The translations under genes were made by a program, and so were the position numbers. 39,648 bases of DNA from a virus, in IMG/VR virus record IMGVR_UViG_3300007517_000003, positions 1-39,648 of that record. One strand, 5' to 3'. Below are positions 8,626 through 39,648 of the stretch, piece by piece (position 1 is the stretch's first letter; each line of letters starts with the position of its first letter). The notes below the pieces were generated by a model. The model saw nothing but the letters and a program-made list of their open reading frames with translations, was not told the DNA's origin and did not search any database.

Positions 8626-9204
8626 TCACCACGCCGCCGAGCGTACCCTCGTCCGACCGAACCGCGCATCGAGCAGCAGGTTGATGGCATCAGCAGCCGC
8701 CTTCAGGTGCCCGTTGATCTTGTGCTGCTGATTTACGACGCGCACGCCCTGGCACCGCGCAAGCTTCATCACGGTCCAGCCTTGCACCACGACCACGCGC
8801 ACGCTCAACTGGCAGTCGGAAGGCACGGCGCCCCACATCTGCCCGGCGAACAGCGCCGCATCAAGCCGGTGCTGGATCACCGCGAGGAACCCGTCGGGTC
8901 CCGCACCCGGGCTCATGTCCAACCCGCACCGTGGCGTGAGGCCGCGCTCCATCGCCTCGGTCGCCATCCTCAGCGCCAGCAGCGCGTTGACCCGATCGCC
9001 ACCCAGCGTTGCCCTCAGCCTCGTGAGGTTATCGATCCGCCGGATGACTGTCGACGGCCGTCCATCCGCGTCGAGCACATGCTCGCGCTGGTAGCCCTCG
9101 GGTGCCTCCAGCCCGATAGCCGCTGCTGAGCCGGCCCCTGTCGCCAGCCGGACTAGCCGCTGCGCCTTCAGCCGGCCCTTGGTCTTGCGCCCCCGAATGC
9201 TCAT
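8626..9204 (-). CDS. Unknown protein in the late-regulator position
   Basis: 192 aa, with a basic N-terminus (MSIRGRKTKGRLKAQR) and a C-terminal segment (SVRVVVVQGWTVMKLAR, then HLKAAADAINLLLDARFG). The tail vaguely recalls DUF6456-type C-terminal regions, but no confident family was assigned. It overlaps the upstream gene as ATGA and is the last gene before the terminator and candidate late promoter, so a late transcription activator or antiterminator is a reasonable guess. A small terminase is the main alternative because none was found elsewhere. Confidence 0.6.
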   Translation of the reverse strand: MSIRGRKTKGRLKAQRLVRLATGAGSAAAIGLEAPEGYQREHVLDADGRPSTVIRRIDNLTRLRATLGGDRVNALLALRMATEAMERGLTPRCGLDMSPGAGPDGFLAVIQHRLDAALFAGQMWGAVPSDCQLSVRVVVVQGWTVMKLARCQGVRVVNQQHKINGHLKAAADAINLLLDARFGRTRVRSAAW

Positions 9205-9597
9205 GCGGACCGCCGGTCCGAGGCAATGCGCTCGACCATCATGGCGATCATCAATGCGCGGTTCAGTTTGCTCCGCCGCTCGATCAGGTCATCCTCGATC
9301 AGCTTCCGCAGCTCCGATGGCTTGGGGAAGAATTCGCACCGCCGGATGGCGAGCCGGGCCGCCCTCAGGATCAAGTCGGAGGGCACGTCCCACAGTGCGG
9401 CGGAGTAGGCAACCACACGGGCTTTGAGCTCGGCATCGGATGCGCGATTGTTCGGAAAAACGACCGCCATTTCCATCATGGCCCGATCGAAAGCGGACGG
9501 TTCATGCGGCTCCAAACCTTCGCGAAACTGAGCAATGATCGAGGGCAGGGCCGCTGCCACTTCGGCCCGGATTGCCATGCCGGAAGCCCATGATTGG

Positions 9598-13206: not shown

Positions 13207-13605
13207 TCAGTTCACCGTCTCGGGTGTCTTTGAGTGGAAGACGTTCGGGTGATCAGGGTCAGCTTCAAACCCAGAATTCATGATCGCATCGCGCACTTTG
13301 CCCCTAAGGCGGTCTTCGGACGTTCCCGCCCTAACCTGCTCGCGCTTCAGGGGCGCGGAACGCTCGTCGAGCGGCAGGTCCATTTGCTGGACAAGATTGG
13401 CCTCATAGGTCGCCAGCAGCTCGTCGGCCGCAAGGCGGTCCCCGTCGGACATCTTCCGCCGCTTGACGACAGCCTTCATGACGACGTTGTCATAGCCGTC
13501 GCTCTTGGCCTCTTGGTAAACCTCGGCCAAATCCTCGCCGATCGCCTTTTTATCTTCCTCAAGCGCCTCGATGCGCTCGATGTAGTTCCGCAATGCCGAC
13601 ATCAT
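13207..13605 (-). CDS. GapR/DUF2312-family nucleoid protein
   Basis: 132 aa from tandem ATGs at 13605, which are preceded by AGAGGAGA. Residues 4-75 match DUF2312/GapR: YIERIEALEEDKKAI, then DLAEVYQEAKSDGYD and a KRRK segment. GapR of Caulobacter is a small dimer/tetramer clamp that binds overtwisted DNA ahead of polymerases. The 57-residue C-terminal extension here (after about residue 75) is not part of the short bacterial proteins. Sited in the replication operon, it may help topological handling of phage DNA. Confidence 0.85.
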   Translation of the reverse strand: MMSALRNYIERIEALEEDKKAIGEDLAEVYQEAKSDGYDNVVMKAVVKRRKMSDGDRLAADELLATYEANLVQQMDLPLDERSAPLKREQVRAGTSEDRLRGKVRDAIMNSGFEADPDHPNVFHSKTPETVN

Positions 13606-14090
13606 GCTTCTCCTCTTGGGTTGAACAGTTTCTTGCGCCGCACCGCAGCGCCGATGAGGCCAAACCCGGCAATCATCGTCACCCATGTGCCCGGCTCGGG
13701 AATGGCGGGCGGCGCAACCGGCTTGCCCGGTATCGGCCTGAAAAAGGGTGCGGGCGGCACAAGGGGTGCAGTGCCGCCCGCGATCAGACCAGGGAAGGAG
13801 GTACCCGGCTGACCATTCGTCGATTGGATGTTGCCGAGCGGAACCAGCTCGACCGAAAAGGGGCTGCCCAACGTCGTCGGGCAATCGAGAATGCGGGAGT
13901 CGGATGGCTTGGAAGGCTCGATACGTTCCCGCGCCGGGCTGGGTTTGGAGGCCCGCGCCTTAGCCTTGGCGGCCTTGCGTTCCTGTGACACGCCGGACTT
14001 GACGCCGACCTGATGCACGACCGGCACCGTGCAGACGAGCCCCAAAGCAGCGGCGGCCTTGATGATCTGGGCTAATGTCAGCGCGCTCAT
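13602..14090 (-). CDS. PEP-CTERM sorting-signal protein
   Basis: 162 aa. The C-terminus has a full PEP-CTERM tripartite signal: PEP at residues 131-133, a hydrophobic helix TWVTMIAGFGLIGAAV at 135-150, then RRKK at 151-154. This is the sphingomonad-style variant with Trp after PEP. The N-terminus (residues 5-25) is mildly hydrophobic and could be a signal or anchor; the centre is basic and then Pro-rich. Host exosortase would be expected to process it at the envelope. It overlaps both neighbours by 4 bp, so it is an integral part of the early operon. Confidence 0.75.
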   Translation of the reverse strand: MSALTLAQIIKAAAALGLVCTVPVVHQVGVKSGVSQERKAAKAKARASKPSPARERIEPSKPSDSRILDCPTTLGSPFSVELVPLGNIQSTNGQPGTSFPGLIAGGTAPLVPPAPFFRPIPGKPVAPPAIPEPGTWVTMIAGFGLIGAAVRRKKLFNPRGEA

Positions 14091-17423: not shown

Positions 17424-17938
17424 CCACACCCAACGAAACCGAAATGACATTGAGCACGGTCAAACGCGGCCGGACGATTGGCCAAAGGGCTTGGGACGAT
17501 AGCGATGGCACGTTCCAGGATGCAACCGACATTGCCGAGCGGCTATTCACGGGCGATCCGGATGCCATGCGCGAATTGTTGCCCGCGATAGTGCGGGAGC
17601 ATTGTCGGGGGATGGTGGCGCAATATGTGGCCAGCATTCGCAAGGCGGCATTTTATCCGGGGATTGCGGTTGCGGCGCAGGGCGGTCGATTGCGGGCGGC
17701 GCAGGCATCGGTGGCGCTGATGGACTTTCCGCTGCCCAACACCGGCAAGCTGTTGCGTGATGCGACGGGTGACGAGTGCGCGGTGGCTGCGGCGGGTTAT
17801 CTTGTCACGGCTGCGGATGCGGGGGCTAAGGCGCGGTGGCTTGAGGCGATTGCCGAGCGCGCCGGGGAGTCTGCGGTGGGCGACGTGCTGACTGAGGCTC
17901 AGCTCCAGCAGATCAGGAAGACGATCAATGCTCAATGA
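17420..17938 (+). CDS. Early protein, unknown, GTG start
   Basis: 172 aa, assigned to GTG 17420, which overlaps the upstream stop (GTGA). It is predominantly helical, with HCRGMVAQYVASIRKAAFYPG in the middle and a terminal AQLQQIRKTINAQ. From about 17560 the DNA has a visibly different G-rich wobble use (gcggtggctgcggcggg) from its neighbours, suggesting a different recent source. No function was recognised. Confidence 0.65.
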   Translation: MTTPNETEMTLSTVKRGRTIGQRAWDDSDGTFQDATDIAERLFTGDPDAMRELLPAIVREHCRGMVAQYVASIRKAAFYPGIAVAAQGGRLRAAQASVALMDFPLPNTGKLLRDATGDECAVAAAGYLVTAADAGAKARWLEAIAERAGESAVGDVLTEAQLQQIRKTINAQ

Positions 17939-19127
17939 GAACTCATGGATTGATGGCGCTATGGACGCGCTGTCATGCGGGGCCATTTCGTCAACGCCTG
18001 AAAAGGCCAGGTCATCTGCGCCCCGCAACCCTATTTCCCGGAAGGCCAGCACCACGTCGCCTGAAAAGGCCACTGGGCGAACGCCTTCCAGGGAACCAGA
18101 TCGGAGGGCCAAAGCGGTAGCGCCTGAAAAGGCCACGTTCTCCCCGCCCTCCGAAACCCATTCGGTGCAAGCCGAAGCCGATGGCCAATTGGCTTCCGTC
18201 AGCAATGACCAGCGAGACAGCGCCATCGGCACCATCATCGAGCTGCACCGGCTGCGCTGGGACATGATCCGCGCACGCCAGCGGCTTGAACTGCAAGCAC
18301 AAGCATCGCTCCGGCGCATCAACGACGGGGACAAAGCGCTGGCCGGAAAAGCATGGGCCGCCGTGAAGAAAGCGCCGGAAAGCGCGGCACCGTGGGAGGC
18401 CGCATACGTGCAGGCCATGACCCCATTGCTCGCCGTGCAGGCCGATGCCGAACGCAAGCTTGCCAAGTTGGTCAAGGCGCTGCCTATCTACCCGTGGGCA
18501 AAGGCGGTTAGCGGGCTGGGTGACGTATCGCTGTCTGCCATCATCGGCGAGGCGGGTCTTGCGCCCGGCGATTATCGCAGCGTGGCGGGGCTGTGGAAGC
18601 GCATGGGGCTGGCTGTTATCGACGGCGGCCGACAGCGCAAGATTGCGGGCGATGCTGCCCTGTTGCACGGCTACAGTCCGGGGCGGCGCTCGGTCATGTG
18701 GAATATCGGGGCTTGTTTGATCAAGGCTCAGGTTCGCGCGGTGAAGGCTGAGGATGGCACGCGGGAGGCGTCCATTGCGATTGGCGTTTATGGCCAGCTT
18801 TACCTTGATCGAAAGGCGATTGAGAAGGAGCGCACCGCAACCGCGGCGCACGCGCACAACCGGGCGCAACGCTACATCGAAAAACGCTTGCTGAAGAATC
18901 TTTGGCGAGCGTGGAGGGCCACATCTAGCGCGCCTGAAAAGGCCATTAAATGCGCGCCCTCCGAACCTATTTCCCGGAAGGCCAGTGAGGGTCCGCCTGA
19001 AAAGGCCAACGTGGCAACGCCTTCCGGGGAACCCATTTCGCAGGCCAAGGGCGCCGCGCCTGAAAAGGCCAAATCAGCGCCGCCTGCGAAAACCGACGCA
19101 CCCTCACAATCGAAAGGCACACCATGA
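17928..19127 (+). CDS. Transposase_20 (IS110-type HhH)-like phage protein with repeat flanks
   Basis: 399 aa. The centre (about residues 170-320) resembles the C-terminal Transposase_20 domain of IS110-family enzymes: VSGLGDVSLSAIIGEAGL, then LWKRMGLAVIDGGRQRKI and HGYSPGRRSVMWNIG, with a terminal RAQRYIEKRLLKNLWRAWR helix. The N-terminal DEDD catalytic domain of IS110 is absent. Both ends are made of 21-residue repeats with an APEKA core. There are no insertion-sequence ends, so it is a domesticated, possibly DNA-binding, phage protein. Confidence 0.7.
   Translation: MLNENSWIDGAMDALSCGAISSTPEKARSSAPRNPISRKASTTSPEKATGRTPSREPDRRAKAVAPEKATFSPPSETHSVQAEADGQLASVSNDQRDSAIGTIIELHRLRWDMIRARQRLELQAQASLRRINDGDKALAGKAWAAVKKAPESAAPWEAAYVQAMTPLLAVQADAERKLAKLVKALPIYPWAKAVSGLGDVSLSAIIGEAGLAPGDYRSVAGLWKRMGLAVIDGGRQRKIAGDAALLHGYSPGRRSVMWNIGACLIKAQVRAVKAEDGTREASIAIGVYGQLYLDRKAIEKERTATAAHAHNRAQRYIEKRLLKNLWRAWRATSSAPEKAIKCAPSEPISRKASEGPPEKANVATPSGEPISQAKGAAPEKAKSAPPAKTDAPSQSKGTP
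17997..18185 (+). repeat. 63-bp repeats, left triplet
   Basis: Three units, each beginning with the invariant CCTGAAAAGGCCA, at 17997, 18060 and 18123 (spacing exactly 63 bp). A related half-unit with the core GGAAGGCCA or GGAGGGCCA occurs about 40 bp into the first two units. It encodes the N-terminal PEKA repeats. Confidence 0.85.
18933..19121 (+). repeat. 63-bp repeats, right triplet
   Basis: Three more units with CCTGAAAAGGCCA at 18933, 18996 and 19059, again 63 bp apart. The first units of the two triplets share the CTATTTCCCGGAAGGCCAG half-unit, so the triplets are homologous. They bracket the transposase_20-like core. Confidence 0.85.
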
Positions 19128-34816: not shown

Positions 34817-35160
34817 TCCGCGTCCTCGGGCGATGCGGTGAGCCCAGAGATGCGCATGACCGCCTCTGCCAACCGCCCGACCGGAACTGCGGATTTGGTC
34901 ATCAGCGTACCAATGGCCGCCTCACGCGCCGGCATTGCGAACAGCGGCTCGCCGGCCGCGTCGGTTGCCGCCGTCACCACCAGCCACGCCGCAAGATGCG
35001 CGTTGCCATCCTCGCCAACCGTCGCCATGTCGATGCGCTCGGCAAGCGTAAGCTCGCGGACCGTCACCTTGCCGCCCCATTCCGGGACGTCCACCGTCAC
35101 GCGCTTTAGCGTGCCAGCGGCAAGGATTGCGGCCGCCCCCAGGCTGGCAGCCCGGCTCAA
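34807..35160 (-). CDS. Tail assembly chaperone (gpG-like)
   Basis: 117 aa. KRVTVDVPEWGGKVTVRELT is the recognisable N-terminal beta part, followed by a helical segment and a C-terminus of ASPEDAEKN. It ends at TAG just after the slippery heptamer. It coats the tape measure during tail assembly and, with the frameshift product, sets tail morphogenesis. It overlaps the tail tube gene by 4 bp. Confidence 0.85.
   Translation of the reverse strand: MSRAASLGAAAILAAGTLKRVTVDVPEWGGKVTVRELTLAERIDMATVGEDGNAHLAAWLVVTAATDAAGEPLFAMPAREAAIGTLMTKSAVPVGRLAEAVMRISGLTASPEDAEKN
34810..34816 (-). promoter_or_regulatory. Programmed -1 frameshift slippery site
   Basis: On the minus strand A-AAA-AAC in the correct zero-frame register (GAA AAA AAC TAG). 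It fits X-XXY-YYZ exactly, with the zero-frame stop one codon later and the -1 frame open for 117 codons. Confidence 0.85.
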
Positions 35161-35591
35161 CTCCGCACCGCCGCGCCCGAGAATTTAATCGCGACCTCGG
35201 CCTTGATGCTGTCCCCAACCGGGGCCGATACCCGGAACATCTTTACAAAGCCGGACACTGTGTAAGTGACGGCCCCGAATGCGGGCGGCAACAGGAACCG
35301 GAACTGCACGACCGCGCCGGAAGTGGCCAGCGTTTCAAGCCGTTCCTGCGCGGTGGCAAAGCCCGATGGCGACCGGCGGCGAAGCTGCAACTGGAACGAC
35401 GTATCGCCGAACTCAGGCAGATCGCCGATGTATTCCTTGCCGGTCGAATCCAGCGCCGTGACGTCGATCTCACCGCGCTCGGGGCCGGGAAATGCCAGCG
35501 ACCCAACGATTCCGCCCACGGCAATGAACGTGGCCGCAACTGCGGTTTCCACCTCCATGATCGTGCCATTTGCCAGTGCTTCGCCTGCCAT
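35157..35591 (-). CDS. Major tail tube protein
   Basis: 144 aa, preceded by AAAGGAA. Beta-rich tube-protein pattern: FPGPERGEIDVTALDSTGKEYI, then FGDTSFQLQL, and C-terminal VSAPVGDSIKAEVAIKFSG, the typical tail-tube closing motif. It polymerises around the tape measure to form the tail. Position between terminator and chaperones fits. Confidence 0.88.
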   Translation of the reverse strand: MAGEALANGTIMEVETAVAATFIAVGGIVGSLAFPGPERGEIDVTALDSTGKEYIGDLPEFGDTSFQLQLRRRSPSGFATAQERLETLATSGAVVQFRFLLPPAFGAVTYTVSGFVKMFRVSAPVGDSIKAEVAIKFSGAAVRS

Positions 35592-35646: not shown

Positions 35647-38127
35647 TCAAACCACTTCCGGCGCGACGGTGCGCAGGTCGAGCGTGTAGATCGCGTTATC
35701 GGGCATCCGCATGCTGCACAGATCGGCCGTCATCGAGCCGTCTGTCGTGGCGTACGACCGGGGCACGATTTGCAGCGGGCCCAGCGTCCATGTGGCCCGA
35801 TTGTCTACCGCGGCGTTCGGGCCGCTGGTCGGGATCAGTTGCGATAGGCTGTTGACGATATTGTTGCTCAGCGTCGTGCGGAGGTTGTGCGTGTAGACCC
35901 GCGCACCGGCTTGGTGCTCACTGATCATCACGTTGCCGGTGATTTCCATGTCGTCGACCCGATTGGTGATACCGTTGTTCACCAGCGCGGCGTCATTCAC
36001 CGCGCCCAGCATCACATTGCCCGTAACGCGGTTGAACCGGCCGGCGTCCGGGAAAGCTACATCCGGCTTCATCTGGTAGGTGTAGGGGCGGCTGTGGCCC
36101 CAAAGGAAATTGCCGTCCAGCCAGCAGTTGTTCGTCTGCGAATAAAAGGCGATGCCGTTGGCGTGGATGCCAAGCACCTGCGAAATGATGTTGCGGCGAA
36201 TGAGCCCGCCCGGCGTTCCGTTCTGGTACAGGATCGCAGTGCCGCCGAGCCTGTTGATGACGTTTTCGAAAGCCTCGTAAGTGCCGCCGCGCGAGATGCT
36301 GATCTGCATCATGTCCTTGATGCGGTTCCGCCGCAGTTTCAGCGCGGTCATCCGAGCAAACATGGCGGGGATGTAGCCTCCCTGCGATTGGCGCTCACCG
36401 TAGCAGTCGTGGATGTAGTTGTTTTCGATGATGCAGCTTGCCGCCGCCGTCGTCGTGCGGCCCACCTCCGGGTGGAAATTGAACGGAGGTTGCACGGAGC
36501 CCGTCATCTCCAGGTTGCGGATGGTGACATGGCTGCGAGCGCGGAAATTGATCCATGGGCGCGGCCGCCCGATGCGAATGTCGAGCGATCCGCGCGTCCG
36601 CATGATGGCCTTGCCCGGCGCGATGACGGCAAAGCTACCGGGCAGCGTCACATGGTGGCGACTGTTCAGCAGATAGGCGCGCGTGTTGGCGTACCATGCG
36701 TTGCTACCCAGCCCGGACGTGTAGGCCCCGACCGTCACGACGTTTCCAACCACGGTCTCCACAGTCCCGCGCGCAATCAGCTCGCCATTGATCTGCATGC
36801 ACAGCCGGACATAGCCTTCCTGCCCGGCCGCGATAGCCGCGGCCTCCGCACTGGTAAACACCGGCACCTGATTGACCACGCCCGGAATGGTGAAGAACTT
36901 GCCCGCGTTAAAACTGGGGTCGGACCCGCCGATGTCATCTTCGAAGATCGGCTCCGCAAGCTCGGGATAACGCCCGATACGCATGAGCCCGAACGCATCG
37001 AACAGGCGGAGGCAGTGGGCGGCAGAGTTTGCAGGATCGAACTCGACCACATGCAACTGCGCCCAGTTTGCCGCGCCGCCCGCATCGGCCTGCGAAGTTG
37101 CAGCCCGCACCACCGTTGCCGGGTCCGCCGCGTCCAGCACCGCCCGTCGGCCGGTCGGATTGTGGCTTTCGTACACGATCGGATTGGCCAGCGTGCCAGA
37201 TGCGCTGACTTCGATTGTCTTGCGCATCATCTCGTTGCCGACGAACCGCACCACAGATCCCGGCGCAAGCGTTACCGCCGCCGCAGCACCCGTGGCACCA
37301 TTCAGCGGACCGGGCACATTCCGGAAAGCCGTGGCCGGCGTATTACCGGCCAGCGCATCCGACCCCGTTTCAGGCGCCACATACCAGATGTCGGCCGATG
37401 GCGCAGGAGGGGGTGGCGGTGGAACAGCGACGGCCTGAATGACGATATCGAACGGCCCCAGCGCGGCAGTTTCGCCATCGGAATCCGTGGCGGTTATCGT
37501 GATCCCGCCGATGGTCGCGGGTGCGCCTGTCACTGTCGACTGAAGCCGACCGGTTGCCGTCGTGAATGTCCATCCGGGCGGGAGCGGGCCGGTCGTGAAA
37601 AGTGCAAATGAATAAGGGCCGACCCCACCGTATGTCGTCGGCGTGAACGAATAAGCGTCCCCGGTGACAACCGTTAAGGCTGGTGACCCCGTGATTTCCA
37701 GCGGCTCGAAAATGGCAGGCGGATCGGGATCGAGCGGCGCAACAGCCGGGACGGCCATTTCGATGGTCAGATAGTCGGTCGCCCGGCGGAAAAACTTGGG
37801 CGTGTCCTCGTCATAAATGTCGCGCTCGGCATCAAGCTCGGCGTGCATCAGGGCATTGTTGCCGTCCTGTATCGCCGCCGCAGCGAGGCGGCTCATGTCA
37901 ACCGCCTGCGCATAGGTCGTGGCGTAGCAGTCCACCTGGATACGCCCATTGCGCTGGCCGGTTCGGCCGTCAAGCGCATGCACGTCAAAGCCGCTGATCC
38001 GCTGCCAGACGATGTATGGCGCCGGGGCGCCCTGGCTCGCCCGCCCGCCGAAAATGCGCCCGGCAACAATCGTCGCCAGCCCACCATCAGCCTCAAGCCG
38101 AGCCCTGATCTGCTCCTCGGCTCCCAT
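35647..38127 (-). CDS. DUF3168 tail terminator fused to Ig-like and beta-helix tailspike-like domains
   Basis: 826 aa without interruption. Residues 1-127 match DUF3168 tail terminators (IRARLEADGGLATIVAGRIF, then PYIVWQRISG and QVDCYATTYAQAVDMS). Residues 143-235 are a putative Ig domain (SPALTVVTGDAYSFTPTTYG). A Pro-rich hinge follows, then from about 246 to 826 a right-handed beta-helix starting WYVAPETGSDALAGNTPATA, with Asn ladders and repeated NRIxGNVM and NIV units. DUF3168 proteins are usually 120-140 aa. The extension resembles pectate-lyase-like depolymerase spikes. Confidence 0.85.
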   Translation of the reverse strand: MGAEEQIRARLEADGGLATIVAGRIFGGRASQGAPAPYIVWQRISGFDVHALDGRTGQRNGRIQVDCYATTYAQAVDMSRLAAAAIQDGNNALMHAELDAERDIYDEDTPKFFRRATDYLTIEMAVPAVAPLDPDPPAIFEPLEITGSPALTVVTGDAYSFTPTTYGGVGPYSFALFTTGPLPPGWTFTTATGRLQSTVTGAPATIGGITITATDSDGETAALGPFDIVIQAVAVPPPPPPAPSADIWYVAPETGSDALAGNTPATAFRNVPGPLNGATGAAAAVTLAPGSVVRFVGNEMMRKTIEVSASGTLANPIVYESHNPTGRRAVLDAADPATVVRAATSQADAGGAANWAQLHVVEFDPANSAAHCLRLFDAFGLMRIGRYPELAEPIFEDDIGGSDPSFNAGKFFTIPGVVNQVPVFTSAEAAAIAAGQEGYVRLCMQINGELIARGTVETVVGNVVTVGAYTSGLGSNAWYANTRAYLLNSRHHVTLPGSFAVIAPGKAIMRTRGSLDIRIGRPRPWINFRARSHVTIRNLEMTGSVQPPFNFHPEVGRTTTAAASCIIENNYIHDCYGERQSQGGYIPAMFARMTALKLRRNRIKDMMQISISRGGTYEAFENVINRLGGTAILYQNGTPGGLIRRNIISQVLGIHANGIAFYSQTNNCWLDGNFLWGHSRPYTYQMKPDVAFPDAGRFNRVTGNVMLGAVNDAALVNNGITNRVDDMEITGNVMISEHQAGARVYTHNLRTTLSNNIVNSLSQLIPTSGPNAAVDNRATWTLGPLQIVPRSYATTDGSMTADLCSMRMPDNAIYTLDLRTVAPEVV

Positions 38128-38612
38128 CAGCTATTGCGACCGTTCGGCAGTACGCCGCGCTTGGCCACCCGCTTGGCCGCCTTTTCAATCTGGCCACCAA
38201 GCTTCTGGCCAAGGCGCGCGATCAGCACATTCTGCATGCGATCCCACACCGGGCGGAACCATGGGCGCGCGCGCATCTTCACGGTTCCCCATTCCAGGAA
38301 CGAACCCCAAAAAGCGTTGCCCGTCGTCACCATCATGACGATAGTGTTGTTGACCCGGGCGCGGCTCTCCCGGACCTTGATGTTTTCGCGAAGCTGTCCA
38401 TAGCGCGCACTGCCGACGCTGCCATCCTTCCGCGTCCAGCTCTTTTTGGTCTCGCCTTTTGCGTTGCGCGGAGCGGCGGCACGGAGTGCATCGCGAAATT
38501 CGTTTGCGGTCGCGCGCAAGCTGCGGCGGCCGGCCACGGTCGCATCTTTGCCAAGCTCGGAAAGCGCGCGCGAAAGATCGGCCCCGCCTTCGAACTTCAG
38601 GTTCATCTTCAT
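38127..38612 (-). CDS. HK97 gp10-like tail completion protein
   Basis: 161 aa from ATG 38612; the longer frame from 38681 runs over the stopper gene and was rejected. MKMNLKFEGGADLSRALSEL, then RATANEFRDALRAAAP and the C-terminal SFLEWGTVKMRARPWFRP are the gp10 hallmark. It joins head and tail together with the neighbouring stopper and terminator. Confidence 0.88.
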   Translation of the reverse strand: MKMNLKFEGGADLSRALSELGKDATVAGRRSLRATANEFRDALRAAAPRNAKGETKKSWTRKDGSVGSARYGQLRENIKVRESRARVNNTIVMMVTTGNAFWGSFLEWGTVKMRARPWFRPVWDRMQNVLIARLGQKLGGQIEKAAKRVAKRGVLPNGRNS

Positions 38613-38616
38613 CGGC

Positions 38617-38949
38617 CTACTCCTGCGGCGCAGTGCCAGACAGCACGATGGAGCCATGCTCTCGGCGGCGATCCACGCCATCGACCTGCAAAGGCTGGCC
38701 CTCGAACAGCACGCGCCATTCGGTCGTGACCTCTGCGGTCTCGGAATCCAGACGCATCAGCAGGCTGATCTGTGCCACGCCCTGGCGCTGGCCTTCGCGC
38801 TCAAGGTCGGTTGGCGCAAAGCGCAGCCGCCGGGCCCATCGCTCGCCGCTTGGCGCGTAGGTCACAACCGCGCCGCCCTGCGCGTCAACGCCCTGCGTCG
38901 GCCGCAGCAGCGTCACGCGGTCTCGCAACTGGCCAGCCCGGATTTGCAC
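38617..38949 (-). CDS. Head-tail stopper (Phage_H_T_join)
   Basis: 110 aa. IRAGQLRDRVTLLRPTQGVD, then WARRLRFAPTDLEREGQRQG and a TTEWRVLFEGQPLQVDGV strand pair match the SPP1 gp16/HK97 gp7-like head-tail adaptors. It closes the connector and holds DNA in the filled head. Confidence 0.85.
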   Translation of the reverse strand: MQIRAGQLRDRVTLLRPTQGVDAQGGAVVTYAPSGERWARRLRFAPTDLEREGQRQGVAQISLLMRLDSETAEVTTEWRVLFEGQPLQVDGVDRRREHGSIVLSGTAPQE

Positions 38950-39383: not shown

Positions 39384-39648
39384 TCAGGCTATCGCCCCGC
39401 GCCGGATGGTCACCATCTCGCCAAGTGAGCCACTGTTGCGCCCGGCCCAAAGGTCGCCAGACGTGAACTGCGGCGGCATCCAGACATGCGGCGTAAGGCC
39501 CGACACAATGCCAGTCACGCTGTTCAGAACCGGCTCTTTCGTTGCCGCATCCCGGAAAAGGTTTCGGTTCGCCGCAACGGTCCAATCGATCCCCGTGCCG
39601 ATATGTGCCCAGATGAGGCCCGTGCGCACCTTGCAGGGGCGGTGCGAT
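39384..39648 (-). CDS. Fiber-tail adaptor/SGNH fusion, C-terminal end across the junction
   Basis: This is the end of the 792-aa protein that starts at 2237. The frame enters from base 1 (equivalent to 39526) without interruption and stops at 39384. A GTG codon at 39629 could look like a start for an 81-aa ORF, but the frame is already open upstream, so it is internal. The C-terminus contains a Trp-rich stretch and ends in RRGAIA. The next late gene begins 37 bp downstream. Confidence 0.8.
   Translation of the reverse strand, partial: SHRPCKVRTGLIWAHIGTGIDWTVAANRNLFRDAATKEPVLNSVTGIVSGLTPHVWMPPQFTSGDLWAGRNSGSLGEMVTIRRGAIA
39526..39648. repeat. Circular overlap, right copy
   Basis: Exact duplicate of bases 1-123. 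Any gene count or read-depth estimate should use only one copy. Confidence 0.9.

Follow-up and report, generated by a model that had tools for sequence, protein, structure and literature searches.

The gene in the tail terminator position of this phage genome encodes an intact terminator that runs, within one uninterrupted reading frame, into an Ig-like module, a proline hinge, and a predicted right-handed beta-helix domain. We confirmed at the sequence level that this fusion is real, and we propose, with a probability of about two in three, that it provides terminator-anchored Ig-beta-helix arms at the neck of the virion that contact host glycan. The window, meaning the whole stretch of DNA that was analyzed, comprises 39,648 bases and is the virus record IMGVR_UViG_3300007517_000003. 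Its features around the fusion are as follows.

38617 to 38949, minus strand: head closure (stopper-type) protein (PF05521, 1.7e-9; PHROG Hc1)
38127 to 38681, minus strand: HK97-gp10-like/Neck1 protein, upstream of the terminator (PF04883, 3.6e-8; PHROG Neck1, 1.8e-22)
37738 to 38127, minus strand: tail terminator domain (PF11367/DUF3168), residues 1 to 130 of 826 (Pfam, PHROG, AlphaFold, Foldseek)
37393 to 37737, minus strand: Ig-like (He_PIG) domain and proline-rich hinge PPPPPPAP, residues 131 to 245 (He_PIG profile)
35650 to 37392, minus strand: right-handed beta-helix domain, residues 246 to 826 (PF13229 profile; 27% identical relative)
35647 to 35649, minus strand: stop codon of the fusion ORF
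35157 to 35591, minus strand: major tail protein, directly downstream of the fusion ORF (PHROG major tail protein, 2.4e-12)

The fusion ORF (35647 to 38127, minus strand) consists of 826 codons with no internal stop. The first-pass annotation had claimed that the terminator continues without interruption into an Ig-like domain, a proline hinge, and a beta-helix of about 580 residues, and both the open frame and the profile matches bear this out. He_PIG matched residues 149 to 229 with 27.0 bits (cut-off, 24) when the segment was searched in isolation and narrowly missed its cut-off on the whole 826-aa chain; the Ig segment also had low pLDDT in an AlphaFold model built without relatives. The terminator has a GC3 of 0.78 and the beta-helix one of 0.80, with the Ig segment lower at 0.64; in codon score, the terminator and beta-helix equal neighboring structural genes, and the Ig segment again falls below them. 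Between residues 124 and 301, we saw no start codon preceded by a ribosome-binding site from which the spike could be made on its own. An antisense ORF of 574 aa (35887 to 37611, plus strand) was taken as a shadow.

The terminator domain itself was identified at several levels. Residues 6 to 120 matched PF11367 (5.5e-15; 56 bits against a cut-off of 24.5), and residues 3 to 120 matched the PHROG family "tail terminator" (6.9e-11). An AlphaFold model of residues 1 to 130, built with 17 aligned relatives, had a pLDDT of mostly 77 to 97 and a predicted fold order of helix-helix-strands-helix-strands, in which the last strand, RATDYLTIEMAV, aligns where the chains of relatives end. Foldseek matched this model to terminators or neck proteins of 9lbn, lambda, T5, SPP1, DT57C, R4C, and Chi, as well as to the RcGTA virion chain 6tba_4A, with a probability of 1.00 for 9lbn, lambda gpU, T5 p142, and 6tba. 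By this model, residues 1 to 130 are an intact terminator with a complete predicted fold. Past the terminator, prediction of the full chain gave no usable fold, and a Foldseek search with the full-chain model returned noise except for the GTA chain.

The fusion ORF also occupies the normal place of a terminator, between Neck1 and the major tail protein. The TGA stop of the Neck1-like gene overlaps its ATG, and about 55 bases separate its stop from the start of the major tail protein gene. Genes are ordered as adaptor, Gp77, structural protein, stopper, Neck1, terminator, major tail protein, chaperone, and tape measure, a standard neck order broadly common to the window, a sister phage (L002), and phages Rivra and Pthi1. 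The portal of L002 is 49% identical to that of the window, and its terminator is a stand-alone protein. Between terminator and major tail protein (9039 to 9539), L002 encodes an extra 166-aa protein (phrog_22694), which sits where the terminator extension lies in the window.

Positions 1 to 123 of the window are identical to positions 39526 to 39648, and since this exact 123-nt terminal direct repeat closes the sequence to a 39,525-bp circle, the genome is complete and the contig is not a fragment. The circle encodes the gene set of a temperate siphophage, including an integrase-like protein (PF00589), large terminase, portal, and prohead protease, together with an HK97-type major head protein, the neck cassette, a tape measure, and a J-like tail protein. 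In our scan, the nearest bacterial relative of the portal belonged to a MAG of Sandarakinorhabdus, a genus of the order Sphingomonadales, and we infer an alphaproteobacterial, probably sphingomonad, host. The window further encodes a protein with a GapR-like DNA-binding domain (13207 to 13884, minus strand; PF10073, 2e-21); GapR is a chromosome-organizing family in alphaproteobacteria. Elsewhere, a 399-aa ORF (17928 to 19127, plus strand) matched a PHROG family annotated "transposase," and the repeat GCGCCTGAAAAGGCCA (17980 to 19071) occurs in three copies near each end of this ORF with a 63-nt period (6 found versus 0.08 expected).

We surveyed how other terminators end. A terminator-derived profile recovered about 70 homologues in related loci, and complete ones run 35 to 59 residues beyond the C-terminal side of the core match, compared to 740 residues in the fusion protein. 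Among the best 80 terminators from 2.9 million viral contigs, this distance was at most 53 residues; a single value of 136 came from a normal protein that the profile had matched a second time in part. PF11367 was carried by at least 250 of 399 Sphingomonadales genomes (among the matches listed, with E values down to ~3e-12) and by 100 of 398 Pseudomonadota genomes. The longest open frames around terminators elsewhere, which reached 770 codons, turned out on inspection to be lengthened upstream and not by C-terminal fusion, and direct searches of viral contigs, genome contigs, phages, and plasmids with the whole protein or its beta-helix part returned no fused relatives. The fusion is a singleton in all sets surveyed. 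The first-pass annotation named no described phage with this fusion, and it was found nowhere else among the 80 best terminators of the viral contigs, the matches listed for Sphingomonadales, the Pseudomonadota sample, and the related loci; no literature on terminator neck fusions was found among openly licensed papers. We do not claim absolute uniqueness, because a 641-residue viral protein, BFVD A0A516LX71, was matched by the terminator fold model and may be another terminator fusion.

A singleton, in a survey where all other terminators end at the end of the fold, invites the suspicion of an error in assembly or sequencing, or of a dead fusion that arose by mutation in one genome. We consider this very unlikely. 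Since codon usage stays coherent from one side of the joint to the other and the neighbors stand in standard neck order, a frameshift or junction artefact between the domains, a concern raised in the first-pass annotation, is improbable; the 826 codons contain no stop, gene spacing is correct on both sides, the genome is complete and circular, and a second neck protein is independently extended in the same genome:

1 to 2240 joined with 39384 to 39525, minus strand: extended Gp77 protein, 792 aa (PF23148, 8.6e-17)

The last 47 codons of this protein, at 39384 to 39525, are joined across the circular joint through the terminal repeat (39526 to 39648). Its adaptor domain (about residues 1 to 95) is followed by ~700 residues of repeats and unassigned domains, whereas Gp77 is a stand-alone protein of ~100 aa in L002 and in two other loci (L159 and L162). 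PF23148, a domain that takes its name from the fiber-tail adaptor in podophage GP4, was found in 64 of 199 Sphingomonadales genomes, nearly always in short frames. Long Gp77 frames elsewhere (627 codons) were upstream reading-frame extensions, and three frames with 152 to 155 extra C-side residues resembled, by eye, fusions to the downstream adaptor. Searches with the Gp77 extension yielded no recognized families in Pfam or PHROGs, no phage relatives, and no convincing PDB matches by sequence. A possible SGNH-hydrolase motif (DNTHFNEVG) read by eye in the extension was unsupported by Pfam, PHROGs, and PDB and is a lead only. Since the terminator and Gp77 are both lengthened, two proteins of one neck cassette are extended in one genome. 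We tentatively suggest, at somewhat less than even odds, that both are carriers of large C-terminal heads forming a double crown of glycan-active neck arms. If so, the phage would have no dedicated collar gene, and its assembly-ring proteins would act as modular anchors for host contact.

What the terminator carries is a predicted beta-helix domain whose best relative is cellular. In profile searches, residues 1 to 130 matched PF11367 and the PHROG terminator family, and residues 246 to 826 gave a borderline Beta_helix match and no match among PHROGs. The Beta_helix (PF13229) match, at residues 528 to 674, scored 25.3 bits on the whole chain and 26.0 bits on the isolated domain (cut-off, 25.9). 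AlphaFold gave this domain, modeled without relatives or alignment, a pLDDT below 60. A tblastn search against 50,697 phages produced no matches at E ≤ 1, a search against plasmids produced none, and nothing significant was found in PDB, where alginate lyases were the best match at E = 0.08. The best relative is a 636-aa free-standing open frame from 1 of 399 Sphingomonadales genomes (7.6e-10; 27% identity over the domain length, including a similar N-terminal cap), which itself matches PF13229 with 37 bits. This protein (locus L119/L122, 8284 to 10191, plus strand) adjoins a WsaF glycosyltransferase gene and is a candidate polysaccharide-acting protein; it stands free, whereas the beta-helix of the window is fused to a phage protein. 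By sequence, the latter appears closer to free-standing cellular beta-helix proteins than to trimeric tailspikes. Free-standing cellular beta-helix proteins are usually monomeric, and a monomeric beta-helix would fit an arrangement of six arms per hexamer in which no trimerization is needed. The "tailspike-like" label given at first pass holds by analogy for beta-helix architecture and gives way, with no phage matches, to a greater resemblance to cellular proteins. "Depolymerase-like" was a guess, as searches gave no significant match to catalytic families, to enzymes in PDB, or to depolymerases of phages.

It is possible, though we put it a little below an even chance, that the arms only adhere, as passive adhesins or as decorations that set host range, binding glycan and leaving it uncut in the manner of the carbohydrate-binding modules found on neck and tail proteins of 936 phages. 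This would be a sub-case of our main proposal. Many polysaccharide lyases and epimerases belong to the beta-helix superfamily, a point in favor of cutting. However, profile searches of the beta-helix part matched no catalytic or binding family, polysaccharide lyases and hydrolases included, the alginate lyases of PDB were matched at the E value given above, and the neck module of a 936 phage was shown to bind rather than cleave (PMC6669499). We infer a contact with glycan in either case, with binding better supported than cutting.

In the proposed neck display, the N-terminal 130 residues would, judging from family and fold, assemble into the hexamer that usually sits between the stopper and the first ring of the tail tube, and up to six Ig-beta-helix arms would project sideways from the neck, presumably outward. 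The arms would touch surface glycan or exopolysaccharide of the presumed sphingomonad host and, by binding and perhaps trimming polysaccharide, may tether or position the virion as the tail tip searches for its receptor. Because the place of the terminator in virions is known, a neck location of the beta-helix domain is likely; this much of the ring of depolymerase-like spikes envisaged at first pass is retained, without the enzymatic label. The proline-rich hinge and linker are natural protease sites, and cleavage after synthesis could part a terminator of the ordinary kind from a spike that is either soluble or attached by other means. We regard this as improbable, given that no cleavage signals were recognized in the chain and that a soluble spike would have no evident benefit from being fused to a protein present in six copies. 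Ig-like domains of tail-tube and capsid proteins are often decorations, and the arms might likewise serve mainly in assembly or stability, such as bracing the head-tail joint or capsid, and not in host contact. This fits poorly with a 580-residue beta-helix related to a protein that adjoins a glycosyltransferase gene, and we think it quite improbable.

In tailed phages, the domains that bind receptors or act on glycans are usually looked for at the tip of the tail. Terminator-anchored arms would mean that a ring protein which is essential to the head-tail joint, and which is normally present in six copies, can carry a glycan-type domain in cis, making the terminator fusion a natural neck display site with a fixed copy number. 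A label taken from the N-terminal domain ("tail terminator") would conceal such a candidate host-range protein.

Compared to known tail terminators (lambda gpU, SPP1 gp17, RcGTA Rcc01690, and T5 p142), the N-terminal domain shares profile, predicted fold, and gene position, but the surveyed DUF3168/PF11367 terminators end at ~130 to 150 residues, whereas the 826-aa protein runs ~700 residues further. With trimeric phage tailspikes and depolymerases it shares, by analogy, a beta-helix architecture on a virion anchor; those proteins sit at the tail tip, whereas the beta-helix of the window would sit at the neck and has no sequence match to them. In RcGTA, a single terminator hexamer lies between stopper and tail tube (PMC7296036). 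Added C-terminal domains also occur in the PVC16 terminator, where the extra domain is a duplicated terminator-like fold, and in larger contractile-tail terminators, where extra domains serve the sheath (PMC11784142); unlike the extension described here, these are not spikes. The nearest functional parallel of the proposed arms would be the neck passage structure (NPS) of 936-group and TP901-1 lactococcal phages, whose neck collar proteins of 500 to 900 aa bear exchangeable C-terminal glycan modules of BppA, beta-helix (groups D and E), or carbohydrate-esterase type (PMC6669499). A C-terminal beta-helix-type module may be common to both, going by the fold class assigned in that study and by the profile match of the fusion protein, which lies just at the cut-off. 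The NPS, however, is built from a collar protein of its own, whose N-terminus is BppU-like and which in modeled cases has trimeric coiled-coil fibers, whereas in the window the terminator serves as anchor and an Ig domain as spacer, and the N-terminal terminator profile and fold set the protein apart from BppU. Beta-helix domains at phage necks are already known; their attachment by fusion to the terminator was found in this genome alone among the sets surveyed.
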